The notes under the pieces: model-generated
Seen by the model: the letters and a program-made list of their open reading frames with translations, nothing else
Database searches by the model: none
What the model was told of the DNA's origin: nothing
DNA from: Bifidobacterium asteroides
GTDB taxonomy: Bacteria > Actinomycetota > Actinomycetes > Actinomycetales > Bifidobacteriaceae
Length of the DNA stretch: 64,000 nucleotides
Direction of reading: 5' to 3'
NCBI RefSeq assembly: GCF_030758775.1
Contig: NZ_CP132384.1
Span: forward strand, 868,001 to 932,000
In this document: positions 22,989-39,037 of the stretch, piece by piece
Numbering within the stretch: the stretch's first letter is position 1
Layout of the letters: every line of letters starts with the position of its first letter
Position numbers and translations under genes: made by a program

Positions 22989-23016
22989 CGATCTGGCGTT
23001 TGCAAGCCCAATGAAT
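22989..23016 (+). repeat. Left copy of 28-bp island-boundary direct repeat
   Basis: Reads CGATCTGGCGTTTGCAAGCC then CAATGAAT. It matches 38900-38927 at 26 of 28 positions in the same orientation. Its last base is immediately followed by the GGGCTATAGG end of the first IS, and its partner immediately follows the third IS, so the pair brackets the whole island like a long target duplication or attL/attR. Confidence 0.8.
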
Positions 23017-23017
23017 G

Positions 23018-24371
23018 GGCTATAGGAACTAAACGTGTTGTTTATGTTGGGGGTTTGGCCTTGTGGCTGTAAGCGTGTTGGGTGGTTGTTAATAGGTCGG
23101 GTTGTTAATAGGGGTCTTGCAGGGGTGCCCGTTCCTGTTCGATTGGGGAATGAGAACCAGATCGAAGAGGGCCAGGCATTGCCCCATATGCCATGGGCGG
23201 ATGCGCAGGCATGGGCGCAACAGATCAGGCACGCAGCGCTGGATGTGTCCGTCCTGCTCGATCACGTCCACCGCGCGCAGGCAGGACCGGGCCCGCGCCG
23301 CGCAGTTGAGGGAGTTCCCGGACCGGCCGCTGACGGGCAGGACCCGGGAACAGATGGGGGCCATGGGCGCCAGGGCCTGGCGTAAACGGGTCGGCTGGTG
23401 CTGGAACATCAAGCCGGCAATCACACCGGACGGGGTGGTCCATCACACGCTCATGGCCGACGGCACGTATATGGCACACGGCTGGTGCCTCCTGATAGCG
23501 ATCGACGGGCAGACGGGCCAGGTCATCGACCGGCAGTGGTGCCATCAGGAGAACACGGCGGCCTGCACGGCCCTGTCCTCCCGCATCCCCGGGCCCGACG
23601 TGCTCATCACCGACGGCCTTCGCGGCGTGCAGAAAGCCTGCCATGCCTGCTGCCGGGCACGCGCATCCAACGCTGCCTGGTGCACGTGCAACGCAACACC
23701 AAAACCGACCTGACACTCAAACCACGACTTCAGGCCGGCAAGGAACTCAAGCGACTCTCCGACCAGCTCACCCGGGTCCATACCATCGAGGAAGCGGTGC
23801 GTTGGGGTGAGGCCTTGAACGCCTGGCACGAAAGATGGAAAACCCTCATCGACGAACGCACCATGGCCAAGGACGACCCAGCCAACCCCAAAGCCAGCCA
23901 CCAATCCTGGTGGTGGACCCACCAGGAACTCCGCCGCTGCTACCGCAGGCTCGAACACCTCTTCCAAGACAGGCCGCTCTTCGCCTTCCTGGAACCCGAA
24001 CTCACCGCCGGCGGGCCAGTGGAACGCACCACCAACCGGCCGGAAGGAGGAGTCAACCCACCCATCAAACGCACCCTCCTGCAACACCACGGCCTACCCG
24101 AGAGCCACATGGGACGCGCCTGCGAATGGCGCTGCTGCATGAAAACCGACAACCCCGACCCCGCCAGCCTGATCAGGGACGAACACCACCAGCCACAACC
24201 AGCACCCAAACGGGAAACCAGACAGGAACAGGACGAGCCCGAACACTACGGCACCGCCATCAACTGGAACGAGTTCCACACACCAGTCAGATACCCCAAC
24301 ACCACACTCTGACCAACACACAACCAAACCCACACACAGAACCTAAAACAACGCGTTTAGTTCCTATAGCC
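23018..24371 (+). mobile_element. IS1249-like insertion sequence, copy 1
   Basis: 1354 bp, bounded by inverted ends GGCTATAGGAACTAAACG and CGTTTAGTTCCTATAGCC. Near-identical copies lie at 33258 and 37545, all in the same orientation. Between the left end and the transposase is a 130-bp leader with a direct repeat GTTGTTAATAGG (23085 and 23101). The two flanks share no short target duplication. The single gene is frameshifted. Confidence 0.88.
23150..24312 (+). pseudogene. IS1249-family transposase, frameshifted (copy 1)
   Basis: The N-terminal zinc-ribbon CPICHGRMRRHGRNRSGTQR is followed by the first catalytic Asp in LMADGTYMAHGW and the second in DVLITDGLRGVQ. The frame then breaks. The rest, IQRCLVHVQRNT and the third acidic block TTNRPEGGVNPPIKR, is in the -1 frame. 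Restoring one G at about 23652, as in copy 3, gives an unbroken 387-residue IS1249-type protein. A ribosomal slip is possible, but no standard slippery heptamer is visible there. Confidence 0.85.
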
Positions 24372-24692
24372 CCTGATGCCGGAGAGACCGTTCTGTATCA
24401 GCATAGAGGCTAGATTGGCTGAGCTCTGATAAGGATGCGAAGGGTAAGGAATACGAGCGGTGTCCATCTCAGTTACACCCCTTTAGATAAAAAAGTGCCG
24501 CCCTAGTGTGCATATCATATAAATATGATAGAGGCAGTGGCGGCTTCTAACAAGCTTTAATATACTCGGGATATCAGTTAGAAAGCTTCATCAAGATAAA
24601 GCTTCACAATATAAACACATTTATTATCGGATGGTCTTTCTTCTATCATGAGCTACTGCAGATCACCCTTCAATCGGCAAACATAAAACTGG
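24372..24692. other. AT-rich non-coding stretch with nested hairpin
   Basis: No gene seen. It contains GCCGCC (24497-24502) paired with GGCGGC (24539-24544), enclosing a perfect TATCATAT/ATATGATA hairpin (24513-24530), and three AAGCTT sites nearby. It is much AT-richer than the leader that follows. It could be a leftover terminator or a plasmid-type control region; nothing more can be said. Confidence 0.4.
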
Positions 24693-25027
24693 TCGGCTCG
24701 GCCGGGGTTGTGGTCATCGGCGGCTGCGCCTTGATGTCTGGCCGCCGCTGTCGCACGCCTGCGGCGTGCTGCTGAAGGGGTTGGGAATGTGGTGTTTGTG
24801 CCGCCCCCTTCCATTCTGGCCCGGGCCGCTGCGACTCAAGCCCCGAGCGTCTCCGCCCACACCCCGCTCCGGCCGAGGGGGCCGAACAGCATGCCCCCTC
24901 GGCCTCCGGGGGAGTGTTCGGATCCACGCGGGGGCTTGACTCTCCGCTATACCCGGGCCGCCATTCCAGGCGTCGGCACAAACAGTCCCGGCACCAAGGA
25001 AAGGAACACCCATGAACACCACAACCA
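24693..25027 (+). repeat. 335-bp leader repeat, copy A
   Basis: Matches 27316-27650 with no difference that I can find by eye. It holds a GC-rich leader with a 12-bp hairpin (24871-24882 with 24893-24904), the AAGGAAAGGAA ribosome site and the first five codons (MNTTT) of the parB-like gene. The other copy fronts a different gene. Perfect identity across non-coding DNA implies a recent duplication or gene conversion. Confidence 0.9.
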
Positions 25028-26442
25028 CAGTGACCATGCTGCCCATCGACGCCATCAGGCCCAACGACGCCAACCCCCGAAGCGAGATAGGAGACGTGTC
25101 GGAGCTGGCCATGAGCATCGCGTCCCAAGGCATACAGCAGGCCCTGGTCGTCACACCGGCGAACCAGGAGGGGCGGCACACCCTGGTCATCGGACACCGG
25201 CGGCTGGCGGCCGCCGAGCAGGCCGGCCTTGCAACCGTGCCCTGTATCATCACCGACATGGACGAGCAGACCCAGGCGGAGGTGATGCTGGTAGAGAACA
25301 TACACCGTGACCAGCTCACCGCCCTGGACGAGGCACGCGGATACGCCCACCTCCTGGACCTTGGCGAAGACGTGGACCAGATGGCCAAAGCCACTGGCCG
25401 CAGCCGCAGCACCGTGCAGCGACGGCTCAAAATATCGTCCATCGACGACGAGAAAATACTCGCGCTGCCATCCCAGCTGAGCTTCGAGGAATTGGAGACG
25501 ATAGCCGACTTCCGCGACGACGAAGGCCTGCAAGACCAGCTCATCAAAGCCGCAGGCACCAACAACTGGAACATGACACTGCACCAGGTCCAGGCCAAAC
25601 GGTCGCTGGACAAGTGGATCGAACAGGCCCAGGAAGCCATCAAGCAGGCCGGGCTGCCCATCGTGCCGCTGACACCATCACAATCCTGGTCTGACCCGGA
25701 AGGTTGGCGCACCATCGCCCGATTCTCCCCGGATACCGACCCCGACCCCAAGCAGGCCCTCGACACATGGCTGGAGGAATGGGAAGGCGACAAACCCACG
25801 GCCGCCGGACTGCTCGACCGTGGCGGACAGTGGCGCGTCAAAATCACCCTGCTGGAGCCATACACCCAACAGGACCAGGAGGACGAACGCCGGCAAAGAG
25901 AGGATGACCTGGCCAGGTGGCAAGCCGAACAAGAAGCCGAAATCGCACCGGCCAAGCAACTGGACACGGCAAGCCACGACCTGCGGCTGGCCTACACGCA
26001 ACGGCTCATGTCCCTCAAACGCCCCGCCAAAAACCAGTCCCAGGCCCTGTCCATGCTGGTCATCGCCCAAGCGAGCCAACGCACCTGGTGGGTCAGCCGG
26101 GACCAGGTGCGGGACACATGGCGCGCCATCGTCCAGGACCAGGAAGCCGAGCTGGCGCAAAAGGCCGACCTTGACGAGAGTCGCCGCACCCAGACGGCCT
26201 TCGCCCTGTGCCACGCCATCATGGAGACACAGATCAACCACGAGACCTGGCGCAGCCAAGACGACATAGACGGCCTGCTCAAACCCCTCTACCGTGCCCT
26301 CCAAACCGCAGGCTACGCCATCAGCGACGAAGAGCAATCCGGTCTCGACGGCGACCTGGTGCCCCGACCTGAAGAGGAAGACAACGAAGGGAACGAAGAT
26401 GAAACAGACGACGGCGACCAGGAGGAGGACACCAAAGAGTGA
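25012..26442 (+). CDS. ParB/Srx-like partition protein
   Basis: A 476-residue protein. The N-terminal ParB domain shows IRPNDANPR near 15-23, QGIQQALVVTP near 41-51, GHRRLAAAEQAG near 63-74 and VENIHRDQLTALDEARGY, followed by a helix-turn-helix-like ATGRSRSTVQRRL. About 300 further residues have no match I recognise and end in a very acidic tail. In plasmids and integrative elements ParB binds centromere sites with ParA; no parA is present here, so it may regulate transcription or be an orphan. It starts within the duplicated leader. Confidence 0.85.
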   Translation: MNTTTTVTMLPIDAIRPNDANPRSEIGDVSELAMSIASQGIQQALVVTPANQEGRHTLVIGHRRLAAAEQAGLATVPCIITDMDEQTQAEVMLVENIHRDQLTALDEARGYAHLLDLGEDVDQMAKATGRSRSTVQRRLKISSIDDEKILALPSQLSFEELETIADFRDDEGLQDQLIKAAGTNNWNMTLHQVQAKRSLDKWIEQAQEAIKQAGLPIVPLTPSQSWSDPEGWRTIARFSPDTDPDPKQALDTWLEEWEGDKPTAAGLLDRGGQWRVKITLLEPYTQQDQEDERRQREDDLARWQAEQEAEIAPAKQLDTASHDLRLAYTQRLMSLKRPAKNQSQALSMLVIAQASQRTWWVSRDQVRDTWRAIVQDQEAELAQKADLDESRRTQTAFALCHAIMETQINHETWRSQDDIDGLLKPLYRALQTAGYAISDEEQSGLDGDLVPRPEEEDNEGNEDETDDGDQEEDTKE

Positions 26443-26451
26443 ATGAACCCC

Positions 26452-26485
26452 GCAGCCGGCCCCGCCACCAAGCGGGGCCGGCTGC
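26452..26485 (+). terminator. 14-bp perfect hairpin after the parB-like gene
   Basis: GCAGCCGGCCCCGC pairs with GCGGGGCCGGCTGC around a six-base loop, ten bases after the stop codon. No T-run follows. Two more hairpins come directly behind it (26512-26527 and 26540-26556). Confidence 0.55.
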
Positions 26486-26619
26486 CGGCGGCGGCGCAGC
26501 GATGCCTCGCGCCACCCCACGGGGTGGAATCGGCATCGTCGAACGCCCCGCGTTCGGACAGCCAGACCGCAACGCGAGGAACGCACGACTGGTTTGTATG
26601 TGCAATTTGTACTACACTC

Positions 26620-26889
26620 ATGGTCATGGAGATCGAGATAGAGCAATCAGCCCGCAAGCACGGCTGCGCCGACGACGAAATCAGGCACGCGGTCCTCCAC
26701 TCCATAGGCCACGAACAAATCGAGGGCTACGGCGACGAGATGACGGTGGTCTTCGTCGGCCAGCCACACCCCGGGGCCCTACCCGACAACCTGCTCGAAG
26801 TCATCGTCAGCAAATGGCAGGACGGCCAGCTCCACACCTTCCACGCCATGCCGCTGACCAGCCGGTGGCAACATCTCAGATACCAATAG
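26620..26889 (+). CDS. BrnT-like toxin candidate
   Basis: An 89-residue protein (or 87 from ATG 26626). The pattern, a short strand then SARKHGCADDEIRHAVLHSI, a central GxxxV strand region, LLEVIV and a terminal FHAMPL, is that of small actinobacterial BrnT-like proteins encoded before ribbon-helix-helix antitoxins. No ribosome site is seen; a TACACT box ends seven bases before ATG 26626, so the mRNA may be leaderless. The partner gene follows 24 bp later. Toxicity is inference. Confidence 0.6.
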   Translation: MVMEIEIEQSARKHGCADDEIRHAVLHSIGHEQIEGYGDEMTVVFVGQPHPGALPDNLLEVIVSKWQDGQLHTFHAMPLTSRWQHLRYQ

Positions 26890-26913
26890 ACACAACCAAC
26901 AAGGAGCCAGACC

Positions 26914-27261
26914 ATGACCAACACACAGACACCCGCCGACAGGGCAGCACACGCCGAAGCACTCGACCGCATGGCCGACGCCGGCCAATTCACACCCATC
27001 GAAGGCACCCGGGTATACCGGGGCTACGACGCCGGCCCCCTGACCGACGACGACCTGCTCTCCATCTTCGCCGGCCGCCCCCGCGACGAACTCAAACAAC
27101 CCACCAGCAAAACCTGGCAGGTACGCACCACCCCGGCCCTGGACCAATGGGCCGAAGCCGCCGTCAAAACAGAAGGCACCAACCTATCGGCACTGATCCG
27201 CCAAGCCACCGCCGAATACCTGGCACACCACTACCCAGGACTCCGAAGCCAGATGGCCTGA
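26914..27261 (+). CDS. Ribbon-helix-helix antitoxin candidate
   Basis: A 115-residue protein whose last 45 residues (KTWQVRTTPALDQWAEAA, then TNLSALIRQATAEYLA) fit a ribbon-helix-helix fold; the first 70 are a linker-like region likely to contact the partner protein. AAGGAG lies eight bases before the ATG. Gene order (toxin first) is that of brnTA-type modules, where the antitoxin dimer represses the operon. A strong terminator follows 20 bp after the stop. Confidence 0.6.
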   Translation: MTNTQTPADRAAHAEALDRMADAGQFTPIEGTRVYRGYDAGPLTDDDLLSIFAGRPRDELKQPTSKTWQVRTTPALDQWAEAAVKTEGTNLSALIRQATAEYLAHHYPGLRSQMA

Positions 27262-27281
27262 CCCATCAGGGCAACATCATC

Positions 27282-27309
27282 AAGGGACCCCTCAACGGGG
27301 TCCCTTTTT
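27282..27309 (+). terminator. Rho-independent terminator after the toxin-antitoxin pair
   Basis: AAGGGACCCC and GGGGTCCCTT form a 10-bp stem with a five-base loop, followed by TTTTT. It ends seven bases before the second copy of the 335-bp leader. Confidence 0.92.
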
Positions 27310-27315
27310 CCATGC

Positions 27316-27650
27316 TCGGCTCGGCCGGGGTTGTGGTCATCGGCGGCTGCGCCTTGATGTCTGGCCGCCGCTGTCGCACGCCTGCGGCGTGCTGCTGAAG
27401 GGGTTGGGAATGTGGTGTTTGTGCCGCCCCCTTCCATTCTGGCCCGGGCCGCTGCGACTCAAGCCCCGAGCGTCTCCGCCCACACCCCGCTCCGGCCGAG
27501 GGGGCCGAACAGCATGCCCCCTCGGCCTCCGGGGGAGTGTTCGGATCCACGCGGGGGCTTGACTCTCCGCTATACCCGGGCCGCCATTCCAGGCGTCGGC
27601 ACAAACAGTCCCGGCACCAAGGAAAGGAACACCCATGAACACCACAACCA
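27316..27650 (+). repeat. 335-bp leader repeat, copy B
   Basis: Same sequence as 24693-25027, offset by 2623 bp. Here it supplies the 5' region and the first five codons of the DUF4192-like gene. The repeat starts right after a terminator, so it probably carries its own promoter, although no 17-bp-spaced -35/-10 pair is obvious (TTGACT and TATACC are only six bases apart). Confidence 0.9.
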
Positions 27651-28195
27651 GCCTCCAGGACGACGTCAAGCAACTGAGCCAGGACCCCCAACTCATGCTC
27701 ACCGCAGGCCGACAGGCCCTCGACAGCATCATGCGCATACTCGACGGCACCCACCAGCCCGAAGCCATAGGACACGACCGGCTCACCCGCATGGCCGCGC
27801 TGATAGAAACCTCACTGCCGCACCGCGACGCGCTCCTGGTCGCCGCCATCAACCCCGACACCACCCGAGACGACCTGACCACCATCACCGAACAACCCCA
27901 CGACCCCGCCGCCGTCAAACTCATCTTCACCAGCCTCACCACCTGCTTCGAAGGCCGGACCCCCGTCAACCAGGAACGCGCCGACAGAGCCTACAACCTC
28001 TTCGACCAGCTCACCGCCGCCGTCGGCCCCACCCCACACCTCAGCGCCTCCAGAGCCTACCTGGCCTGGGCCGCCCGCGACCCCGACCAAGCCAGCTCAT
28101 ACATGGTCCAAGCCCTCACCCTCGACCGAACCAACAACCTCGCAGCGCTCATCGCCCTGGCCCTCAGTAAGAACATCAACCCCACCGACGACTAA
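27635..28195 (+). CDS. DUF4192-like protein
   Basis: A 186-residue soluble protein. The C-terminal half, ending SASRAYLAWAARDPDQASSY and a helical LALSKNINP tail, resembles the end of actinobacterial DUF4192 proteins, whose function is unknown; the N-terminal part of that family is shortened. The first five residues and ribosome site are identical to those of the parB-like gene because both lie in the 335-bp repeat. The two are thus likely to be expressed alike. Confidence 0.55.
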   Translation: MNTTTSLQDDVKQLSQDPQLMLTAGRQALDSIMRILDGTHQPEAIGHDRLTRMAALIETSLPHRDALLVAAINPDTTRDDLTTITEQPHDPAAVKLIFTSLTTCFEGRTPVNQERADRAYNLFDQLTAAVGPTPHLSASRAYLAWAARDPDQASSYMVQALTLDRTNNLAALIALALSKNINPTDD

Positions 28196-28216
28196 CACCA
28201 CACACAACCAAACCGA

Positions 28217-28250
28217 AGAGGTCTCCTCCCAAACCAAGGAGGAGACCTCT
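28217..28250 (+). terminator. 13-bp hairpin after the DUF4192-like gene
   Basis: AGAGGTCTCCTCC pairs perfectly with GGAGGAGACCTCT around an eight-base loop. No T-run follows. Same style as the hairpin after the parB-like gene. Confidence 0.55.
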
Positions 28251-28330
28251 CCGCGTCCGATGCGTTTCTCCCGCCCCATAAAAGGGGCACTCGAATCCGC
28301 TTCATTCCCTAGGAATGATTGTTGTTTAGA

Positions 28331-28777
28331 TTAATCATGCTTGTCTGCAGCATCAACGGCATGAATGACGAGTAGGGAGATGAGAATGGTGAGAACCTCA
28401 GTTATCAAAGATGAGAGCGCCATGGCTTCCCACCTGCTGAAGGCCAAGGCCATCAACCCCATGAGAAACACAAAACTCACAACTTCGCTAACAAGCTTCT
28501 TCAAGACCTTGTGACTGCTCATGCTAAACAACACATCCACCAACGCATCAGTTATGTAGGTACCAAAGAACCACAACAGAAAGATAACGATGGTACCCAA
28601 AACCCCACGCCACCCATGCACCCAGGAACGAACGCCACCGAAAGGGAGCAAGCGATAAGTGACACCAATGCCGACCGCAAAAGGAAAGACAAAACCCAAC
28701 AACACAGTTCCGAAAAAACCAACACCGGTAATCGCATCCGAAACCGTTACATGGTCTGATCGTCCACGGTCACTCAT
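28331..28777 (-). CDS. Small predicted membrane protein
   Basis: A 148-residue protein with about four hydrophobic helices (near 18-42, 58-80, 95-112 and 120-140) and a short polar N-terminus. I do not recognise the family. GAGAGGGGTGA lies before the ATG. Its start is 33 bp from a solitary IS end, so its promoter may have been replaced by the rearrangement. Confidence 0.6.
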   Translation of the reverse strand: MSDRGRSDHVTVSDAITGVGFFGTVLLGFVFPFAVGIGVTYRLLPFGGVRSWVHGWRGVLGTIVIFLLWFFGTYITDALVDVLFSMSSHKVLKKLVSEVVSFVFLMGLMALAFSRWEAMALSSLITEVLTILISLLVIHAVDAADKHD

Positions 28778-28799
28778 CGCTCACCCCTCTCTCCATGAA

Positions 28800-30110
28800 T
28801 CAGAGGAACAAAACAACGCGTTTAGTTCCTATAGGCCCATTTAAATCAGTTGAGTCAACATTGTTGTATAGGATATGCCCCGAATCCGGCCTATAAAAAG
28901 CCTCCAATAGGGAAAGCAGCGTAGTTTTACCTGAACCCGACGAGCCCACGATGACGGTTCTTTGGTGTGGGACTGCGCTAAAACTAATGTTCTGCAGAGT
29001 GGTATTTCGTTCATCATCTTTGTCCGCTGTATTGTAAGAAAAGCATACATCTTTGAACTCCAGCGTAATGTTGGCTGTATCAAACGAGGAATGCCCATCT
29101 GGGGAAAGCATATTGCTCGAACTTACGGTTTCGCTTTTATCGCGCAAAGATTCAATGTCTTCTATTCTCCTGAGTGGTCCTAAAGCTTTGAAAGCCGTGG
29201 TTATAGATGAGGAAAAGGAGCTTAGCGAAGAAACAACCATAGTCAAATACATTGAAAAGGAGATGAAATTAGAAATATCAAGATCCCCTTTCGCTATTTC
29301 CGCGCCGCCAAAGGAAAAAACGATTAGTAAGGTCAGCTGTATGGCGCAGTTCACAATGGACCGAATGATTGTTTCCTTGTTGGCCACTTTTACTGTTGCC
29401 CGATACACTTCTTCTGCGGTACCGACTACTCTTTTCGTTTCAGGCACTGTTGCCATAAAGGCCTTAATTGTGCGAATTCCAGCTAATGATCGCAGTATGG
29501 CATTAGACAGTCTTGCTGTCTTAGCTTGTACCAGTTCGGTATAGGCCTGCAGACGAGAAGAAGCAGCAATCATCAACAGAATGGATGTGCACGAAGTTAT
29601 AAGTGCCACGGCAAAGAGTCTGGTATCAATGAACAGCATAGCGACAGCTGATCCGCAAGCTGTTAACAGATTCGCGGCCACTTTAAAGAAGTCTGATGAC
29701 AGGGCTGAGCGTAACTCATTAGTATCTGAGATGACAGTTGAGACATAGTCACCCGACTCCCTCTTATCATACTCTTGTACCGGCAGGCCGAGGATACAGG
29801 TAATGAGATTGCTACGTTTATCGAAAACTATTTTCGCCGCAAGGCGGTTTGCCATATTGGATCCCAAACCATCCAGGACGATGCCTGCTACAAACAAAAG
29901 CGCCAAGACTGCAATTGGTCTCACCAACTTCTGACTCTGTTCTATGGCGTGTAGAAGATAATTGACACACAGAGGTTGTAGTAACGCCAGACCTGAAGAC
30001 ACTATACCCACAGACATCACAACAACAGTGATAGCTGTGTGCGGTTTCAATAGTCTGAATACATTAAAAATTGTGGTTTTTTGACGTTGCTGAGTTTGCA
30101 TAGTTGACAT
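28800..30110 (-). pseudogene. ABC exporter half-transporter, 3' truncated
   Basis: The first 330 residues are a type I exporter membrane domain with six helices and the QEYDKRESGDYVSTVISDTNE coupling region. The nucleotide-binding domain begins, with Walker A at GSSGSGKTTLL, then stops after FYRPDSGHILYNN. The last dozen codons are read from the solitary IS end. Signature, Walker B and switch His are missing, so it cannot hydrolyse ATP. Such proteins export peptides, including lanthipeptides. GCGGAAATC precedes the ATG, eight bases after the permease stop. Confidence 0.88.
28810..28838 (+). repeat. Solitary right end of the IS1249-like element
   Basis: AAAACAACGCGTTTAG then TTCCTATAGGCCC, identical to the right end of copy 3. 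No IS body lies beside it: on the side where the element should be there is only the promoter area of the small membrane protein. It marks a past insertion followed by deletion or recombination. Confidence 0.85.
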
Positions 30111-30118
30111 GATTTCCG

Positions 30119-31564
30119 CTATTCGCCTATGGCTGTTTGGACGGTTTCAATTGCCGATCGCTTCAAACTAGAACGTGCAGAGAAAAATGTGGAAAGTGTT
30201 CCCGCGGCGATAATGGGCACAGCAAGGATAATGAAGAACTTCCAGGGGAAGACCACTACAAAGAGATTCTTGGAAAGAGGGAGGAATGTCACAGCGGTGA
30301 AAACTCCGACGAGCAAGGTGGCCCCCGCAGAGATAAGGATACCGGTGGTCACGAGGATGAAACCATCCAAGGCCGATATGGCAAGTAGCTGTCCGGGCAC
30401 AGCGCCCGCGATGGAGATAAGGGCCAGATCAAGGTTGCGTTCCTTGGCAGAGATGGCGAAACTGGCGACCGCACCGATTACAGCAATGAGCAAGGCCGAC
30501 CACAGGCTGGACATAAGCTCTATCGGTGTGGCTGATCCCATGTCTTTCAACTGGGGAAAGCCACTTATGGCAGCAGTACTGGTTTGACCTGTGATTAACA
30601 ATCCACCGAGCAGGAACAGGCAAGCAGTCAGTGAGATGATGGTGGAGCCGAATGCCTTCCCGCGACTTCTCACAATGGCTTGTGCCCGTGCGATCTTCCA
30701 GACATCGGATTGCACAGGAACCAGATTCGTCCATGTTTTGGTGGCCCATTGGATGATGGGTCCTCCAGAATAGGCCAGAGCGACCAGAAACAGCAGTATC
30801 GCGATGATCGGGCCTAATGACATGGGTTGCATGATGATGCCCAATTGGGTCTTACTCAGAGTTTTGGGGTCGTTCAACACCAGGATAACGGCAGCGACAG
30901 CCGGTGCCAGCAGGGCGATGAAACCACCGATAATAAGGAATCTCCTCAGACCGCGCCCAGCTCTCGTGACGTGGACTTCCTCAGTTCCTGAACCTCTCAG
31001 CAGCTCAACCGGAAGCACTTTCCTCAAAGCACGCAGAGTAAAGAGAGCACCCAACAAAGCCACAATGAAACCGACTGCAAGCCCCCTCAAAGCAAAGTCT
31101 AAGAAACCCTGCCAAGTAAAAGTGATAAGCGGCGGTAACAGCACGGCCTCCAACTGGAACTTTAGAATCCGTGGGGCAAGAATTGGCGCCAGCGCCATAC
31201 CAACGATGGAGGAGATCAGAGTCAGCACGAACACCTGCACCATGGTGAGGGTCAGCACCTGCCTAGGTGTGGCACCAAGCAGGGACAACAATGCAAGTCC
31301 CTTCCGCCGCTGCCTTATGGAAGCCTGAATCGTCACCATAATGACCAGGCAACCCAGGACCATTGCTATCTGGTAGACCGAGTCCACGTTAGTGCTGAGA
31401 TGGTGAGATACCACACCCACTTCCCCCGGGGAATCATGTTTGAGATCATTGATTCCCTTGCATACACTCATGGCGCACAGAATCGTCTGCGTGACCACAA
31501 GCACAAGAAACACACCGGCCCAGATTCCTCTATTGGCTTTCAGATCATTCAACGCCCACTTCAT
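30119..31564 (-). CDS. FtsX/MacB-type ABC permease
   Basis: A 481-residue membrane protein with a helix at 14-33 and about nine more, arranged as two FtsX-like blocks: ASIRQRRKGLALLSLLGATP (residues about 81-100) and ISAKERNLDLALISIAGAVP are the paired cytoplasmic motifs of this family. It lacks the large extracellular domain of MacB. It lies 47 bp after its ATPase gene; GAAAGG precedes the ATG. Together they form an exporter or lipid-level peptide-handling pump in a decayed lanthipeptide locus. Confidence 0.87.
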   Translation of the reverse strand: MKWALNDLKANRGIWAGVFLVLVVTQTILCAMSVCKGINDLKHDSPGEVGVVSHHLSTNVDSVYQIAMVLGCLVIMVTIQASIRQRRKGLALLSLLGATPRQVLTLTMVQVFVLTLISSIVGMALAPILAPRILKFQLEAVLLPPLITFTWQGFLDFALRGLAVGFIVALLGALFTLRALRKVLPVELLRGSGTEEVHVTRAGRGLRRFLIIGGFIALLAPAVAAVILVLNDPKTLSKTQLGIIMQPMSLGPIIAILLFLVALAYSGGPIIQWATKTWTNLVPVQSDVWKIARAQAIVRSRGKAFGSTIISLTACLFLLGGLLITGQTSTAAISGFPQLKDMGSATPIELMSSLWSALLIAVIGAVASFAISAKERNLDLALISIAGAVPGQLLAISALDGFILVTTGILISAGATLLVGVFTAVTFLPLSKNLFVVVFPWKFFIILAVPIIAAGTLSTFFSARSSLKRSAIETVQTAIGE

Positions 31565-31611
31565 GACTTACACCTTTCACGCCGCATCGCCATACAGAAT
31601 CAGGGCAATAA

Positions 31612-32325
31612 CTACGCTTGCTCTTCCACATTCCCTGATGCGACAAATCCGCCATCACTCATGGTGTATACGACGTCGCATTGCCGGGCCAGGCGGAGAT
31701 CGTGTGTGACCACGACCACGCATTTACCGGGTCGATGGGAGAAGTCCCGCAACTGCGAGAAAACCAACTGTCCGGACTTCTGGTCAAGAGCACCTGTCGG
31801 CTCATCGGCGAACACAACATCGGGATCCGCGACCAAGGTGCGAATCAAGGATACCCGCTGCTGCTCACCACCTGAGAGCGAACTAGCTGCGTCATTGTCG
31901 TGCCCGCTCAAGTGGAACTTATCCATGAGGGCATCGATGCTTCCTTGATCGACCTTGCGATGGCTGAGAGTCAAGGGGAGCAGGATATTGTCACGAACGG
32001 TCATGGACGGGACAAGATTGTAGGACTGAAACACAAACCCGATATGCGATCTGCGAAACAAAGCCAAGTTACGCTGGTTCTTCTTAGTTAGTTCCTCACC
32101 CAGCACCCACACATTTCCTTGAGATGGCTGTTCAAGACCAGAAAGGCAATATAGCAAGGTGCTCTTACCACATCCAGAGGGCCCTGTAATTGCGGTCATG
32201 GCACCACCAGCAGCAACAAAAGAAAGATCATTGAATACCACAGTGGGAGTCCCGTCACCCGAGACGAAATTCTTACTTAGCTGTTCAGCTACTACCACAC
32301 CATCACGCATAATATTAACCTTCAT
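31612..32325 (-). CDS. ABC transporter ATP-binding protein, MacB/LolD type
   Basis: A 237-residue ATPase with all motifs: Walker A GPSGCGKST (48-56), Q-loop FVFQSYNLVPSMTV, signature LSGGEQQRV, Walker B DVVFADEPTGALD and switch His VVTHD. The start at 32325 overlaps the stop of the LanKC fragment (ATGA); ATG at 32310, eight bases after AAGG, is an alternative. Partner of the FtsX-type permease that follows. Confidence 0.92.
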   Translation of the reverse strand: MKVNIMRDGVVVAEQLSKNFVSGDGTPTVVFNDLSFVAAGGAMTAITGPSGCGKSTLLYCLSGLEQPSQGNVWVLGEELTKKNQRNLALFRRSHIGFVFQSYNLVPSMTVRDNILLPLTLSHRKVDQGSIDALMDKFHLSGHDNDAASSLSGGEQQRVSLIRTLVADPDVVFADEPTGALDQKSGQLVFSQLRDFSHRPGKCVVVVTHDLRLARQCDVVYTMSDGGFVASGNVEEQA

Positions 32326-32924
32326 GGTACTGAGATCAGAGTATCGCCAGACCTCATGCGATTATAAAGCCCCACGACAACGAGTACTGAATCGGACATT
32401 TCTATTGAAACAAACGCCCCATATCTGAAAAAGATAGGTCCGTTATTGTACCTTAAATCACTGAGGATATAAGGTCCTGGTTCACCGCCTATTGCTTCCT
32501 CTAGTTTGAGGGTTAATCTTTCAAGATGCTCATCAGAAAAGGGATATATGGTTATGAATTTTCCACTAGAGCTGCGTCCTGCATATTTGGTATTGGAGGA
32601 TCGGTACTGTTGTTTATCCCTGAGATATTTGAACATAACATGCTCTGAAATACAGATTTTAGAAACTTTTTCTAAAACTGATTGTGCATTGTCAAGGGAA
32701 GCCGTCACATGAATTTTTCATCCGTGGGTCCTCATTATGCAAGCAGTCGGCTGCATATATGTCCATACTACGGATTTATTTGAAGCCCATCCTATCGGAC
32801 AGTCAGGTTCAGGATCCCATGACTCTTCGGCATGTGCCATGAGACTACGGCTATCGACAAAGAAAGGAGATCCTGGGTGCGTCGCCCGCATGTATACAGC
32901 TTCCCCAATCATTGCGTCTCCCAT
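32322..32924 (-). pseudogene. Class III lanthipeptide synthetase LanKC, N-terminal remnant
   Basis: Reading from 32924, the frame gives HPGSPFFVDSR, then a region ending MRTHG, a TGA stop (32718-32720), and in the same frame KIHVTASLDNAQSVLEKV, FKYLRDKQQYRSSNTKYAGR, SGKFITIYP, GPYILSDLRY and FFRYGAFVSIEM. These are the successive landmarks of the LanKC N-terminal lyase region, where GWKIHV is conserved, so the TGA replaces a Trp codon. The kinase and cyclase domains are absent: after about 200 codons the frame stops at the next gene's ATG. A functional synthetase needs about 850 residues. Confidence 0.8.
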
Positions 32925-32948
32925 CGTTGCGGACTATGCTTTGTAGTA

Positions 32949-32976
32949 ATATTATCAGAACCCGGTTCAGTGTCAA
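32949..32976 (-). promoter_or_regulatory. Promoter of the LanKC remnant operon
   Basis: On the minus strand, TTGACA (32976-32971) and TAATAT (32954-32949) are 16 bp apart. Transcription would begin near 32942, about 18 bases before the ATG at 32924, and run through the LanKC remnant, ATPase, permease and truncated exporter. Confidence 0.55.
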
Positions 32977-33090
32977 CTTCTGTTTTAACTCGCTTCTTGA
33001 ATATTAATAACTTGCTCATTGCCTTTGATAGCTAAGTACCCATACGTCGCCTTTTAAGATGGCAACTTTCCTTTGAGTAGAGATGGACCT

Positions 33091-33255
33091 TCAATTGCTG
33101 CATCCAATGATGTCAAGACACCAAGCCGTTTGCATAGCAAACTTTTCCCAGCGTCTATACTTACCTGATCCTCCCCCGTGGCTTCCATTCTGAATGATAT
33201 TAACGACTGCGTCTGCACCGATTTCCTGGAGCAGTGACACCCACTTCAGAGATTC
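33091..33255 (-). pseudogene. Possible gene end cut by IS copy 2
   Basis: A 54-codon frame is open from the IS boundary to a TGA at 33091. The product, beginning ESLKWVSLLQEIGADAVV and ending WCLDIIGCSN, is not recognised. It could be the 3' end of a gene whose front was removed with the IS insertion, or chance. Confidence 0.3.
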
Positions 33256-33257
33256 TG

Positions 33258-34611
33258 GGCTATAGGAACTAAACGCGTTGTTTATGTTGGGGGTTTGGCC
33301 TTGTGGCTGTAAGCGTGTTGGGTGGTTGTTAATAGGTCGGGTTGTTAATAGGGGTCTTGCAGGGGTGCCCGTTCCTGTTCGATTGGGGAATGAGAACCAG
33401 ATCGAAGAGGGCCAGGCATTGCCCCATATGCCATGGGCGGATGCGCAAGCATGGGCGCAACAGATCAGGCACGCAGCGCTGGATGTGTCCGTCCTGCTCG
33501 ATCACGTCCACCGCGCGCAGGCAGGACCGGGCCCGCGCCGCGCAGTTGAGGGAGTTCCCGGACCGGCCGCTGACGGGCAGGACCCGGGAACAGATGGGGG
33601 CCATGGGCGCCAGGGCCTGGCGTAAACGGGTCGGCTGGTGCTGGAACATCAAGCCGGCAATCACACCGGACGGGGTGGTCCATCACACGCTCATGGCCGA
33701 CGGCACGTATATGGCACACGGCTGGTGCCTCCTGATAGCGATCGACGGGCAGACGGGCCAGGTCATCGACCGGCAGTGGTGCCATCAGGAGAACACGGCG
33801 GCCTGCACGGCCCTGTCCTCCCGCATCCCCGGGCCCGACGTGCTCATCACCGACGGCCTTCGCGGCGTGCAGAAAGCCTGCCATGCCTGCTGCCGGGCAC
33901 GCGCATCCAACGCTGCCTGGTGCACGTGCAACGCAACACCAAAACCGACCCGACACTCAAACCACGACTTCAGGCCGGCAAGGAACTCAAGCGACTCTCC
34001 GACCAGCTCACCCGGGTCCATACCATCGAGGAAGCGGTGCGTTGGGGTGAGGCCTTGAACGCCTGGCACGAAAGATGGAAAACCCTCATCGACGAACGCA
34101 CCATGGCCAAGGACGACCCAGCCAACCCCAAAGCCAGCCACCAATCCTGGTGGTGGACCCACCAGGAACTCCGCCGCTGCTACCGCAGGCTCGAACACCT
34201 CTTCCAAGACAGGCCGCTCTTCGCCTTCCTGGAACCCGAACTCACCGCCGGCGGGCCAGTGGAACGCACCACCAACCGGCCGGAAGGAGGAGTCAACCCA
34301 CCCATCAAACGCACCCTCCTGCAACACCACGGCCTACCCGAGAGCCACATGGGACGCGCCTGCGAATGGCACTGCTGCATGAAAACCGACAACCCCGACC
34401 CCGCCAGCCTGATCAGGGACGAACACCAGCAGCCACAACCAGCACCCAAACGGGAAACCAGACAGGAACAGGACGAGCCCGAACACTACGGCACCGCCAT
34501 CAACTGGAACGAGTTCCACACACCAGTCAGATACCCCAACACCACACTCTGACCAACACACAACCAAACCCACACACAGAACCTAAAACAACGCGTTTAG
34601 TTCCTATAGCC
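33258..34611 (+). mobile_element. IS1249-like insertion sequence, copy 2
   Basis: 1354 bp, same ends and orientation as copy 1. It differs by a handful of single bases, for example one that removes a stop at the end of the first frame. No short target duplication: left flank CAGAGATTCT, right flank AGCAATACTT. It joins the AT-rich lanthipeptide remnant to the GC-rich ABC pair. Confidence 0.88.
33390..34552 (+). pseudogene. IS1249-family transposase, frameshifted (copy 2)
   Basis: Same organisation and the same one-base deletion (about 33892) as copy 1, so both derive from one frameshifted ancestor. A T-to-C change lets the first frame run on to 34058. The C-terminal part with the third acidic residue (RPEGGVN) remains in the -1 frame. 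Confidence 0.85.
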
Positions 34612-34613
34612 CA

Positions 34614-34629
34614 GCAATACTTGTATTGC
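34614..34629. promoter_or_regulatory. Palindrome next to IS copy 2, upstream of the ABC pair
   Basis: GCAATAC-TT-GTATTGC, perfect seven-base arms, two bases from the IS end and 88 bp before the ATPase start. It could be an operator for the transporter genes; the cognate regulator would have been left behind at the IS junction. Confidence 0.35.
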
Positions 34630-34716
34630 GTCTCAGTGTAAAGTTCGCTGTAGCTTTTCGCGTTGTGGATTCGTATGGTGCTCGGGGTTTCGTCGGGCTG
34701 TGGATTGGGGTTGGGT

Positions 34717-35448
34717 ATGGCTGGTGAGTTTCTGTCCCTTGAGGGTGTCTCCTATCATTACGGTTCGGGCGGGGCCGGCATCACCGACGTGTCCCTGCAA
34801 TGCCCGCCTGGGTCGTGGACGGCGATCATGGGGCCCTCGGGCGCGGGCAAGTCGACCCTGCTGAATTGCGCCTCGGGCCTGCTGCCGGTCGACCAGGGCT
34901 TGGTGCACATCGGGCAGCATGACCTGGCCCGGATGGGAGAGGCCGACCTGACACGTGTCAGGCGTGACCTGATCGGGTTCGTGTTTCAGGACTACAACCT
35001 CGTCGAAGCGTTCACATGCCTGCAGAACGTGATGCTGTCCTTCCTCTTCGGCGGGCCGCGCATCGAGGTCGACGACGCCGTGCGGGCCCTGCAGGCGGTG
35101 GGTCTGGATGGTTTCGCCGACGTCTATCCCTCGGACATGTCGGGCGGGCAGCGGCAGCGTGTGGCGGTGGCCAGGGCTTTGGCCTCGAGGCCCTCGGTCG
35201 TCTTTGCCGACGAGCCGACGGGCGCCCTGGACACCGCCGGCTCCCAGCTGGTGCTGGACGCCTTCGGCCAGGTGGCGGCGCGGGGGTCCACGGTGCTGAT
35301 GGTGACCCACGACCCGGATGTGGCGGCCCGTGCTGGCAGCACCGTGTTCCTGGTCGACGGCCGCATCCACTCGGTGTGGTCGGGCTGCACGGCCGAGCAG
35401 CTGGCCATGCACCTGGCCGAGACCACGTTGAGCGGGGCCGACCGGTGA
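34717..35448 (+). CDS. ABC transporter ATP-binding protein, BceA/MacB type
   Basis: A 243-residue ATPase: Walker A GPSGAGKST (39-47), Q-loop FVFQDYNLVEAFT, signature MSGGQRQRV, Walker B VVFADEPTGALD, switch VTHD. The start at 34717 follows GGGGTTGGG; an in-frame start at 34663 adds residues unlike the family. Its stop overlaps the permease GTG start. The pair resembles peptide-resistance or peptide-export transporters of Gram-positives. Confidence 0.92.
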   Translation: MAGEFLSLEGVSYHYGSGGAGITDVSLQCPPGSWTAIMGPSGAGKSTLLNCASGLLPVDQGLVHIGQHDLARMGEADLTRVRRDLIGFVFQDYNLVEAFTCLQNVMLSFLFGGPRIEVDDAVRALQAVGLDGFADVYPSDMSGGQRQRVAVARALASRPSVVFADEPTGALDTAGSQLVLDAFGQVAARGSTVLMVTHDPDVAARAGSTVFLVDGRIHSVWSGCTAEQLAMHLAETTLSGADR

Positions 35449-37481
35449 GCGCGGGCATGGCCTCCCCGGCCCAGCAGGCGAGCCGACCCTGGCGCAAGCG
35501 GCCAACAAGGGCCAGCCTGTCCTTCTCCCTGGTCAGGGCCCACCGCTCCTCCTACTGGATCATGTGCCTGGCCGTGTTCGCCGCCACGACCCTGTCCTGC
35601 GCGACCCTGCAGGCACGTCAGGCGGGCCTGGCCTACGACGGCCTGCACGGCCTGGAGGGCCTGAACGCCTACCACCGCATTCTGACCAAGGCCTACTACG
35701 ACCTGGCATTGAACACTGTGTCGCTGATCGCGCTGGTGTTCTGCCTGCTGGTGACGGTGTTCCTGGTCCTGTCATCGGTGTCCTTCCTGGTCCAGGAAAG
35801 GCGCCGGGAATACGGCCTGATGCGGCTCAACGGCGCCTCGGGCAAACAGGTCGTGGCCATGGCCCTGCGAGAGTTCTCCCTGCCCCTGGCCCTGGCCGAC
35901 GCCGCGGGATGCCTGGCCGGATCCCTGCTGACCGTTCCTGTGGGCATGGCCTTCATAAGGGCCATGGGCACCACGGACATCGACCTGCTCTTCCACCCCA
36001 GGGCCCGCCTGTGGGTGGCGGCCGTGGCCTTCGCCCTGATGATGGCGGTCTGCCTGCTGGGCGTGTGGCTGGCCACGCGCAGGTTCGGGGCCGAGACCCC
36101 CCTGAAGCTGATGACACAACCGGCCGTCAAGGACAAAAAGGCCAGCCGGTTGCGGATCGTATGCTCCCTGGCCCTGTTCCTAGCCTCTATCACGGTCGCC
36201 TTCATGCCGGTCGACCGCTCGGAGTTCTACGACCGGCTGCTGGGCTTGATCGTCCTACTGATAATCACCGTGTACGTGGCCGCCCCCCTGCTGGTCCCCC
36301 CGGTAGCATCCCTGCTGGGCCTGCTGGCCGAAAAAACCGCGGCCGGACCGGGCCTGCTGGCCCGGCAACGGGTCCGCAGGGGCAGGGCAGGCGCCACGGC
36401 CATAGCGTTGCCGGCCATGATGGCGCTGACCATTCTGGTCTCCTTCATCCTCATCATGCAGGCGGGCCGCATGAGCTCGGTGGTGCTCAGCATCGAGCCC
36501 ATGAAGGCCGACGTGGTGGCCTCCTCGGACGACCTGTCCCAGGCCGGCAGGATCTCGCGCACGCTGCAGGGGCTCGGACGGGAGGTCGGCACAGCCGACA
36601 TCTACCAGACCCAGCAATGGGTCCTGACCGACAAGCACGGAAACATCCAGATGGACACCTTCCCCCAGGTCACCTGGGCCCAGGCCCGTGACCTGGCCGA
36701 CCCCAGCCACAAGGACACCGCCCCCAAGGTGCTCCAGGGCAGCCTGGCCGACCTGGGCGCCGGCAAGGTGGCCATAAGCAGAGCATACGACAACCAGCGC
36801 AAGCCGGGCGACACGATCACCCTCATCGACCGCCACGACAAAAGACACCAGGTCCAGGTCGTGGCCGTCATCGAGCCGCCCAAGACCACCCCCCACGTGA
36901 ACATGGACATGCTCACGACCGAGGATGGCCTGCCCAGGGAGGGCGAGAACGGCCGACTGTACGCCTTCATCACCGCCCGCGACCACACCCAGGCCGACGA
37001 CATAGCCCAACAGATAAGGGACACCACCCACAAGATCACCGCCTTGAACAGGCAGGACTTCATCGACGACTACATCAAGACCAGCATCAAGGAGCAGCAG
37101 GGAACACCGCTCATGATAGCCGGCGGCACCATCCTGGCCCTGATATTCCTCGTCCAATCTATAGCCATAGGAATCAGCGAACGACGCATGCAGAACCGGC
37201 GCCTCAACCAGATGGGCGTCACCCGCGGCGCCCTCGCCTGGTCAGCGGCCATCGAGACCACACTCGACGTCACCGCCGGCATCATCCTCTCCCTCGTCGC
37301 CGTGGCCATCACCGAGGCATCCGTGGCGATAAGCTTCGTCCGGGACGGGGTCGGCATACAACACACACCCATCATCGCAGACATCTTCCTACCCATGTCC
37401 CTCCTGCTCCTGGCCGTCGCCATAGCCACCACCATCCTCTGCACACGCCTCACCCACAAGAACCAACCCACAAAACACTAG
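35445..37481 (+). CDS. FtsX-family ABC permease, large
   Basis: A 678-residue membrane protein. A helix near 40-60 is followed by two FtsX blocks: VQERRREYGLMRLNGASGKQ in the first and ISERRMQNRRLNQMGVTRG in the second, about 460 residues apart. Between them lie further helices and an extracellular domain of about 180 residues (roughly 355-540). The GTG start at 35445 overlaps the ATPase stop; ATG 35457 is an alternative. Codon use is GC-rich, unlike the permease at 30.1 kb, so the two pairs have separate origins. Confidence 0.9.
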   Translation: MSAGMASPAQQASRPWRKRPTRASLSFSLVRAHRSSYWIMCLAVFAATTLSCATLQARQAGLAYDGLHGLEGLNAYHRILTKAYYDLALNTVSLIALVFCLLVTVFLVLSSVSFLVQERRREYGLMRLNGASGKQVVAMALREFSLPLALADAAGCLAGSLLTVPVGMAFIRAMGTTDIDLLFHPRARLWVAAVAFALMMAVCLLGVWLATRRFGAETPLKLMTQPAVKDKKASRLRIVCSLALFLASITVAFMPVDRSEFYDRLLGLIVLLIITVYVAAPLLVPPVASLLGLLAEKTAAGPGLLARQRVRRGRAGATAIALPAMMALTILVSFILIMQAGRMSSVVLSIEPMKADVVASSDDLSQAGRISRTLQGLGREVGTADIYQTQQWVLTDKHGNIQMDTFPQVTWAQARDLADPSHKDTAPKVLQGSLADLGAGKVAISRAYDNQRKPGDTITLIDRHDKRHQVQVVAVIEPPKTTPHVNMDMLTTEDGLPREGENGRLYAFITARDHTQADDIAQQIRDTTHKITALNRQDFIDDYIKTSIKEQQGTPLMIAGGTILALIFLVQSIAIGISERRMQNRRLNQMGVTRGALAWSAAIETTLDVTAGIILSLVAVAITEASVAISFVRDGVGIQHTPIIADIFLPMSLLLLAVAIATTILCTRLTHKNQPTKH

Positions 37482-37495
37482 AGGCCAGGCCAACC

Positions 37496-37552
37496 ATGAA
37501 CTTTATCCACGTCGTCAGGAAATACATGCCGGGGCACATTCTTGGGCTATAG
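37496..37552 (+). pseudogene. Gene start cut by IS copy 3 after 16 codons
   Basis: ATG 37496 opens MNFIHVVRKYMPGHIL, then the frame enters the IS and stops at TAG. The peptide looks like the start of an ABC exporter membrane domain. It begins 14 bp after the permease stop, so it was probably a third gene of the transporter operon before the IS arrived. Confidence 0.55.
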
Positions 37553-38898
37553 GAACTAAACGTGTTGTTTATGTTGGGGGTTTGGCCTTGTGGCTGTAAG
37601 CGTGTTGGGTGGTTGTTAATAGGTCGGGTTGTTAATAGGGGTCTTGCAGGGGTGCCCGTTCCTGTTCGATTGGGGAATGAGAACCAGATCGAAGAGGGCC
37701 AGGCATTGCCCCATATGCCATGGGCGGATGCGCAGGCATGGGCGCAACAGATCAGGCACGCAGCGCTGGATGTGTCCGTCCTGCTCGATCACGTCCACCG
37801 CGCGCAGGCAGGACCGGGCCCGCGCCGCGCAGTTGAGGGAGTTCCCGGACCGGCCGCTGACGGGCAGGACCCGGGAACAGATGGGGGCCATGGGCGCCAG
37901 GGCCTGGCGTAAACGGGTCGGCTGGTGCTGGAACATCAAGCCGGCAATCACACCGGACGGGGTGGTCCATCACACGCTCATGGCCGACGGCACGTATATG
38001 GCACACGGCTGGTGCCTCCTGATAGCGATCGACGGGCAGACGGGCCAGGTCATCGACCGGCAGTGGTGCCATCAGGAGAACACGGCGGCCTGCACGGCCC
38101 TGTCCTCCCGCATCCCCGGGCCCGACGTGCTCATCACCGACGGCCTTCGCGGCGTGCAGAGCCTGCCATGCCTGCTGGCCGGGCACGCGCATCCAACGCT
38201 GCCTGGTGCACGTGCAACGCAACACCAAAACCGACCTGACACTCAAACCACGACTTCAGGCCGGCAAGGAACTCAAGCGACTCTCCGACCAGCTCACCCG
38301 GGTCCATACCATCGAGGAAGCGGTGCGTTGGGGTGAGGCCTTGAACGCCTGGCACGAAAGATGGAAAACCCTCATCGACGAACGCACCATGGCCAAGGAC
38401 GACCCAGCCAACCCCAAAGCCAGCCACCAATCCTGGTGGTGGACCCACCAGGAACTCCGCCGCTGCTACCGCAGGCTCGAACACCTCTTCCAAGACAGGC
38501 CGCTCTTCGCCTTCCTGGAACCCGAACTCACCGCCGGCGGGCCAGTGGAACGCACCACCAACCGGCCGGAAGGAGGAGTCAACCCACCCATCAAACGCAC
38601 CCTCCTGCAACACCACGGCCTACCCGAGAGCCACATGGGACGCGCCTGCGAATGGCACTGCTGCATGAAAACCGACAACCCCGACCCCGCCAGCCTGATC
38701 AGGGACGAACACCACCAGCCACAACCAGCACCCAAACGGGAAACCAGACAGGAACAGGACGAGCCCGAACACTACGGCACCGCCATCAACTGGAACGAGT
38801 TCCACACACCAGTCAGATACCCCAACACCACACTCTGACCAACACACAACCAAACCCACACACAGAACCTAAAACAACGCGTTTAGTTCCTATAGGCC
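37545..38898 (+). mobile_element. IS1249-like insertion sequence, copy 3
   Basis: About 1354 bp, same orientation as the others. The right end reads CCTATAGGCCC, with one more G than copies 1 and 2 but identical to the solitary end at 28810. It is immediately followed by the 28-bp boundary repeat. The left end interrupts a gene. Confidence 0.87.
37677..38838 (+). pseudogene. IS1249-family transposase, frameshifted (copy 3)
   Basis: It retains the G that copies 1 and 2 lack at the CTGCTGG site but has lost two A's at about 38160 (GCAGAGCC in place of GCAGAAAGCC). The frame breaks just after the second catalytic Asp (LITDGLRGVQ). The C-terminal part from IQRCLVHV onward is intact in another frame. 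The damage is therefore independent of copies 1 and 2. Confidence 0.85.
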
Positions 38899-38899
38899 C

Positions 38900-38927
38900 C
38901 GATCTGGCGTTTACAAGCCCAACGAAT
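38900..38927 (+). repeat. Right copy of 28-bp island-boundary direct repeat
   Basis: Reads CGATCTGGCGTTTACAAGCC then CAACGAAT, differing from the left copy at two positions. It lies directly outside IS copy 3 and overlaps the T-rich end of the tRNA-Ala terminator region, so the original site was just downstream of that tRNA gene. Confidence 0.8.
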
Positions 38928-38957: not shown

Positions 38958-38964
38958 CTATCTG

Positions 38965-39037
38965 TGGAGCTAGGGGGATTCGAACCCCCGACCTTCTCCA
39001 TGCCATGGAGACGCGCTACCAGCTGCGCCATAGCCCC
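38965..39037 (-). tRNA. tRNA-Ala (anticodon GGC)
   Basis: Acceptor GGGGCTA pairs with TAGCTCC (one G-T pair), the anticodon arm is CTCCA-TGGCATG-GAG with GGC, and the T-arm is GGGGGTTCGAATCCCCC. CCA is not encoded. A likely promoter on the minus strand is TTGCTC (39097-39092) and TACTAT (39074-39069), 17 bp apart. Confidence 0.95.

Follow-up and report, generated by a model that had tools for sequence, protein, structure and literature searches.

The DNA analysed here is a 64,000-nucleotide stretch from Bifidobacterium asteroides, hereafter called the window. Between a full insertion sequence (IS) on one side and a leftover IS end on the other, it carries a cassette that consists of a protease tail, a LanKC fragment, an ABC ATPase gene, an FtsX-type permease gene and an IS-cut exporter gene, in that order (Table 1). 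A preliminary description of this DNA had viewed the minus-strand frame at 32924-32322 as the remnant of a class III lanthipeptide synthetase. The N-terminal landmarks of LanKC that it named are all present in the frame, namely HPGSPFF, G-stop-KIHV, FKYL, SGKFITIYP, GPYILSDLRY and RYGAF, with TKYAGR as its SKYAGR-like element, and the frame contains one internal stop.

Table 1. Features of the cassette and of the island that surrounds it (positions in the window)
Feature	Position	Strand	Basis
Whole island, three IS copies and one IS end, adjoining tRNA-Ala (38964-39037)	22990..38927	.	Direct repeats
Left IS copy, leftover terminal inverted repeat	28811..28837	.	IS-end comparison
ABC exporter, membrane part and start of ATPase part	28838..30110	-	ABC_membrane and ABC_tran matches
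FtsX-type permease, 481 aa	30119..31564	-	PF02687 (E = 7.2e-14); open in 7/7 copies
ABC transporter ATPase (LolD/BceA/PsdA-like), 237 aa	31612..32325	-	Profile and PDB matches; open in 7/7 copies
End of 27-codon ORF, in one frame with the LanKC fragment as a result of an internal deletion	32322..32392	-	Junction comparison
LanKC N-terminal fragment (part of lyase domain, residues about 1-178)	32393..32924	-	NF038151, RamC_N
In-frame TGA at a conserved Trp codon	32718..32720	-	Sequence; alignment; sister copy L015
36-codon ORF overlapping the LanKC start	32909..33019	-	Read from sequence
Prolyl oligopeptidase (S9) gene, C-terminal end, cut by IS	33091..33257	-	Comparison with L022
Right IS copy, IS1249 family, transposase in two overlapping frames	33258..34611	+	NF033544; repeats

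The LanKC remnant

A profile search of the frame against LanKC families with the stop masked as X, which had been proposed as a check, gave a strong match to the class III LanKC model NF038151 (E = 5.9e-54), pairing remnant residues 21-178 with model positions 11-168 of 833. The match to the class IV LanL profile was weaker (E = 1.5e-32; 112.8 bits versus 183.7 bits for class III), and both scores are well under the full-length cut-offs. Solved LanKC chains among the PDB sequences were matched with E values as low as 5e-29 (8sap_A), and neither these nor the NCBIfam and Pfam collections held a family that fitted better than the class III synthetases. The half downstream of the stop matched RamC_N (PF25816) by itself (E = 1.8e-38, positions 41-145 of 191), and the 68-residue half upstream had no Pfam match at E 0.1 on its own. 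The remnant as a whole covers positions 8-145 of the 191 in RamC_N, so that the lyase domain is incomplete.

The last 22 residues of the frame (179-200) are not LanKC. They correspond to the final part of a short ORF (27 codons), which precedes the ABC ATPase gene in relatives and whose stop overlaps the ATPase start codon. The kinase and cyclase domains are missing, as the preliminary description had stated: judged by the NF038151 profile, the central kinase domain is absent from the frame, and the C-terminal LanC-like cyclase part of the model has no match anywhere in the 2.08-Mb genome. Five further matches to NF038151 at E <= 0.001 in this genome all fall within model positions 208-470, in stop-free frames of 363-763 codons, and are taken for ordinary protein kinases. 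Relocation of the remainder of LanKC to another place in the genome was considered and rejected, since the NF038151 search of the 2.08 Mb found none.

It is near certain, judging from these matches, that the frame represents the first ~178 residues of a decayed class III lanthionine synthetase. With known class III LanKC (NF038151; RamC_N) it shares the N-terminal lyase-type motifs; it differs in its lost domains, cut lyase part and stop, and is not a working enzyme. We saw no sign of any role for the remnant.

Two small ORFs overlap gene starts, the 36-codon ORF that of LanKC and the 27-codon ORF that of the ATPase gene (in L016, L020, L021 and L022; see Table 2). The former had no NCBIfam match at E 0.1. 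A weak 32-residue match to the LanKC query, with 50% identity, was seen in Candidatus Stammera capleta (L023).

Insertion sequences and the surrounding island

An IS end interrupts the window exporter after about 425 of 600 residues (600-aa open copies occur in L020 and L021). On the other side, the protease sequence represents the end of an S9 ORF found in L022 (Peptidase_S9, E = 1e-28; DNA identity 95.98% over 448 bases). One transposase frame of the right IS matched NF033544 with E = 9e-72, at 242 bits and below the cut-off of 300. Seven IS ends were found in the genome when up to 3 mismatches were allowed, all of them inside the island. The island is edged by 27-base direct repeats (22990-23016 and 38901-38927; 25/27 alike), which lie around the 15.9-kb island and not around single IS copies or the cassette. 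The G+C contents of the LanKC (43.0%), protease (47.5%) and exporter (44.3%) pieces, as well as those of the ATPase (52.1%) and permease (53.2%) genes, are below that of the window (59.3%); therefore, the locus looks acquired.

The 27-base repeat was also found beside an IS end and tRNA-Ala in G004, G007, G020 and G025. Between the second and third IS copies of the island, a second ABC ATPase gene is accompanied by a 674-codon FtsX-type permease gene (34714-37481, plus strand). The left IS end is joined upstream of a 148-codon gene (28331-28777) at the position of the L021 insertion, within 1-2 bases.

Copies of the cassette in related genomes

Of 189 Bifidobacteriaceae genomes, 7 (the window genome among them) contain DNA that is at least 95% identical to the ATPase and permease genes and covers no fewer than 2267 of their 2274 bases (Table 2). 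Some match at E <= 0.001 to the same query occurs in 77 of the 189, and those beyond the seven are weaker or shorter. The Bifidobacterium species that carry copies of the cassette are bee inhabitants. Six copies are 99.7-100% identical over the cassette stretch, and the L022 copy is diverged by 4%. Directly before the ATPase gene, the seven copies have six different junctions, none of which reaches into that gene. The LanKC frame is open in none of the copies and the exporter frame in two; the ATPase and permease frames are each open in all seven, a count that is partly built in, as the copies were collected with the ATPase/permease query. The contigs of L015, L016 and L018 terminate in IS ends on either side. 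These three and L021 (4/6 of the other copies) are contigs ending in IS, and their setting is seen only that far.

Table 2. Copies of the cassette and the sequence directly before the ATPase gene in each
Copy	Genome	Strain	Junction
Window			Break inside LanKC, common to window and L015
L015	G022	B. polysaccharolyticum W8117	Same break as window
L016	G010	B. asteroides VRA_9sq_n	LanKC near residue 199 joined to precursor core
L018	G025	Bifidobacterium sp. B4142	LanKC broken after residue 109, out of frame
L020	G026	B. xylocopae XV2	Joined to start of protease gene (matched to L022 by eye)
L021	G009	B. asteroides ESL0200	Joined to 175-codon gene without family match
L022	G052	B. bombi DSM 19703	LanKC residue 38 joined to precursor core

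No intact copy of the window lineage was found by queries with the LanKC N-terminus, with the LanKC C-terminus plus precursor, or with the ABC DNA, and neither RamC_N nor the LanKC end with the precursor retrieved further copies of this lineage. The preliminary description had suggested a search of related bifidobacteria for an intact locus with the same ABC genes and a class III precursor; a class III-type precursor is present in L021. The cassette had no megablast match in either the plasmid or the phage collection, and a word-11 plasmid search with the ATPase gave one 97-base Streptomyces match.

In L021 (838-6000), the cassette is circularly permuted inside the 175-codon gene, the empty site of which is seen in L075-L078. 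The four junctions (L021 with L016, L022 and the empty sites) are consistent with a single reciprocal crossover at a TTG that they share, within the final codons of the precursor gene. The arrangement suggests that the cassette locus has a circular form.

The precursor and the ancestral gene order

A LanKC C-terminus is encoded at L021:5301-5879 (NF038151 positions 679-832, E = 1.8e-29) and is directly followed by an ORF for a class III-type precursor (RamS, E = 3.3e-4; NF038159, E = 2.7e-4; both under the curated cut-offs); in having the precursor after LanKC, L021 resembles known class III LanKC loci. This ORF reached 20.9 bits with NF038159 (cut-off 30) and 21.5 bits with RamS (cut-off 24.3), and a composite precursor with the L016 end scored 21.6 and 22.8 bits, which are likewise below the cut-offs. 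Among the copies, L021 alone retains the precursor's own start, there with a foreign end. In its leader start, MNVLNLQ, and its two SxxSxxxC motifs, the L021/L016 sequence is like the SapB/labyrinthopeptin-type precursors (NF038159, NF033212 and RamS PF19402), but its scores fall short of the curated cut-offs for such precursors. We take it to resemble labyrinthopeptin. In the portion of PMC7268733 consulted, LxLQ and Sx2Sx3C are given as class III features. The window holds no such precursor, and nothing resembling the core of the L021 precursor was found in the window genome.

In L016 and L022, the precursor end, the small 27-codon ORF and the ATPase gene follow one another directly on the same strand. 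Upstream of the same ABC genes, L022 has a prolyl oligopeptidase gene that is read in three frames (Peptidase_S9_N and Peptidase_S9). Joining the copies by their overlaps, we infer an ancestral order of protease, 36-codon ORF, LanKC, precursor, 27-codon ORF, ATPase, permease and exporter; no single genome seen contains the whole of it. An S9 gene beside LanKC likewise occurs in streptococcal class III loci, where the clustered prolyl oligopeptidase is LanPB (PMC7268733, same portion); the cassette lineage differs in its host family, Bifidobacteriaceae, and the window retains only the last codons of the gene. The earlier view of the window as the footprint of a lost lanthipeptide locus fits these neighbours, in that the S9 gene, the LanKC C-terminus and the precursor accompany the same ABC genes in relatives. 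The locus is not simply lost, however: it is flanked by IS, occurs in several species, and has kept two genes open in every copy.

Other LanKC loci in Bifidobacteriaceae

RamC_N matches were found in 12 of the 189 family genomes. The frames are stop-free and 859-933 codons long in G056, G090, G077, G028 and G100; they are damaged or partial in G151 (one stop), G107 (a split frame) and G050 (a weak partial match under the cut-off); and those in G000, G010, G022 and G025 belong to the window lineage. A second locus type is shared by G056, G090, G107 and G151, which are 99.88-99.98% alike over about 17 kb. Like the window lineage, this G056-type locus has LanKC, a prolyl oligopeptidase, an exporter (590 aa), an ATPase and an FtsX permease, but the gene order differs, and identity to the window lineage is 41% for the LanKC N-terminus, 48% for the ATPase, 35% for the exporter and 24% for the permease. 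Its protease, exporter, ATPase and permease genes are open in 4/4 genomes. LanKC is open in 2/4 and broken in G107 and G151 by single-base lesions, which could be sequencing errors; with the pair open throughout, the G056-type lineage is a partial parallel to the window lineage. A 615-codon frame upstream, open in G107, is shortened in G056, G090 and G151, so that lesions also exist beyond LanKC.

No relative of the window permease was found at E 0.01 within 15-18 kb around the full-length LanKC genes of G077, G028 and G100. Therefore, the ATPase/permease pair is not general in class III loci. In G077, two class III precursors over the NCBIfam cut-offs (L038:7905 and L038:8069; NF038154, 23.5 of 22; NF038159, 44.5 of 30) precede the open LanKC.

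A candidate orphan immunity pair

The history that we favour, with a probability of roughly 0.55, is that of a class III locus that became mobile and decayed, leaving its ATPase/permease pair behind as orphan immunity. A class III locus comprising an S9 protease, LanKC, a precursor, an ABC ATPase with an FtsX permease, and an ABC exporter would have been mobilised by flanking IS1249-type elements among bifidobacteria of the B. asteroides group and their relatives. In the window genome, an internal deletion took out all that lay between the interior of the LanKC lyase domain and the small ORF ahead of the ATPase gene. The protease and exporter genes were truncated by IS ends, and the remnant acquired its TGA, most simply at a later stage than the deletion. 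The capacity for production is gone, but the pair has stayed open, as a LolD/BceA-like transporter that most likely still works and shields the cell from the peptide, a predicted immunity without production. The remnant, its IS setting, the differing junctions and the open ATPase and permease frames are read directly from the sequences, whereas we infer the immunity function of the pair and its maintenance by selection; continued protection is suggested because the frames are open in 7/7 copies, because their changes are mostly synonymous, and because the proteins are like those of the Lol, Mac, Bce and Psd systems.

With BceAB, PsdAB and LolCDE/MacB, the pair shares the combination of an ATPase with an FtsX-type permease. 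The peptide-resistance transporters of the BceAB/PsdAB class are termed 'type VII'. Among the many ABC ATPase chains matched by the window ATPase are those of PsdA, BceA, LolD and YtrE, and the permease profile matches LolF, LolC, MacB and, weakly, PsdB (best E = 3e-6; PsdB, 0.0019). PsdB has 646 aa versus 481 aa in the window permease. In a defence-system library, the ATPase had a best match to mad3 (102 bits) and some weak ones; the mad3 match is taken for generic.

It is possible, though less likely than not, that the locus simply decays, the cassette hitchhiking on IS and degrading neutrally, and that the pair is open through recent spread and the choice of query. The near identity of six copies leaves little time for lesions, the pair was itself the query that found the copies, and IS ends truncate genes on both sides. 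Moreover, the pair has four relatives that stand alone; those in G142 and G013 (genomes without a RamC_N match) are open and the other two are damaged, with the ATPase in two frames in G135 and the permease in three pieces in G041. Neutral decay accounts less readily for six different upstream junctions that all stop short of the ATPase gene, or for the diverged L022 copy, in which the exporter gene carries one stop besides four indels, the protease gene is broken, and the pair is clean. All eight L022 lesions, a hand-set minimum, fall outside the pair (P = 0.037). The dN/dS of the pair is low as well. Between the window and L022, the ATPase has a dN of 0.0056 and a dS of 0.136 (21 synonymous and 3 nonsynonymous changes), and the permease a dN of 0.016 and a dS of 0.168 (57 and 17), values that come from a Nei-Gojobori script and the one diverged pair of copies, the six near-identical copies being too young. 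These differences may also predate the breakdown, having been collected while the locus was whole.

A second doubt concerns the task of the pair. It could have another job, such as general resistance to peptides or envelope stress, or lipoprotein handling, and never have served in lanthipeptide immunity. The closest homologues, which lie apart from LanKC, have 69-75% ATPase identity versus 48% in the G056-type locus, and the three LanKC loci of G077, G028 and G100 do without such a permease nearby. We nonetheless regard another job as unlikely. The pair adjoins the precursor end, with the same direction of reading, in L016 and L022, and a similar ATPase/FtsX pair stands beside the protease and LanKC in the G056-type class III locus, so that an ATPase with a membrane partner is found next to biosynthetic genes in both lineages.

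It is very improbable that the shortened LanKC works, as a lyase-only enzyme or a decoy, by readthrough or as a translated fusion. The fusion in L015 is an open 200-codon frame with a stop that overlaps the ATPase start, as such a role would have it, but the RamC_N match ends at 145 of 191, in L018 the frame is lost at the junction that follows residue 109, and the window copy is interrupted by a stop. A structure prediction for the 200-residue fusion from its single sequence gave no usable information (mean pLDDT 32).

The stop had been described as replacing the conserved Trp of GWKIHV, and in a nine-row LanKC alignment the G-W-K-(I/L)-H position is indeed Trp in 8/8 other rows (one of which, L016, is a near-copy of the window). 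The internal deletion of the window is shared by L015, which has a Trp codon instead of TGA; the two differ at 6 of 4421 positions, one of them being this codon, which is changed by one base. The TGA is most simply later than the deletion, because L015 shares the deletion and has Trp, and it is probably not the cause of the death of the gene. Recoding of TGA as Trp was rejected, as the enzyme is truncated regardless and the sister copy reads Trp. That a functional gene lies behind a TGA read as Trp, or behind a sequencing error, is hardly credible: the one-base distance to L015 would suit it, but function is not restored to a copy whose kinase and cyclase parts are absent and not found in the genome, and the ATPase and permease frames have no in-frame stop.

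To return to the favoured history of orphan immunity, a wider form of it is plausible at somewhat less than even odds and is put forward tentatively. In a mobile cassette common to bifidobacteria related to B. asteroides, separate deletions would repeatedly erase class III synthesis, the self-immunity transporter would be kept, and IS-borne resistance without production would spread between species, from a locus able to circularise and reinsert as in L021.

Relation to known loci

The locus is a decayed case of a known locus type, in a host group with few reports, with an informative series of breaks. It offers a small case of the collapse of a peptide locus, in which close relatives show six different breaks and the same two genes are spared each time. 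If the pair protects, the copies form a natural series in which production is lost and protection kept, and the 'cheater' prediction for peptide warfare becomes directly testable.

The view that bifidobacterial class III loci have seldom been described agrees with searches of the open-access literature, but it needs qualification insofar as full-length LanKC frames exist in other Bifidobacteriaceae. No open-access paper that joins 'Bifidobacterium asteroides' with 'lanthipeptide' was found, and the portions of open-access texts searched held no description of the decayed locus, the class III-type precursor or the full-length Bifidobacteriaceae LanKC frames. In the portions consulted, an article on bee-gut RiPPs mentions Bifidobacterium in general terms only (PMC10673953), class II and class IV loci of B. 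longum are tabulated in PMC4289311, and the discussion in PMC8535415 mentions a class III peptide of another genus.

Two further genes near copies of the cassette were noted. In B. bombi, a few kb off the cassette, a further related ATPase gene (L022:4697-5305) has 68% DNA identity over 618 bases, with no permease frame among the frames listed beside it. Near the cassette of B. xylocopae XV2 lies a gene for a SagB-like dehydrogenase (L086:10314-11576; TIGR03605, 60.2 bits, below the cut-off of 78.4), which is possibly a second peptide-modification remnant.
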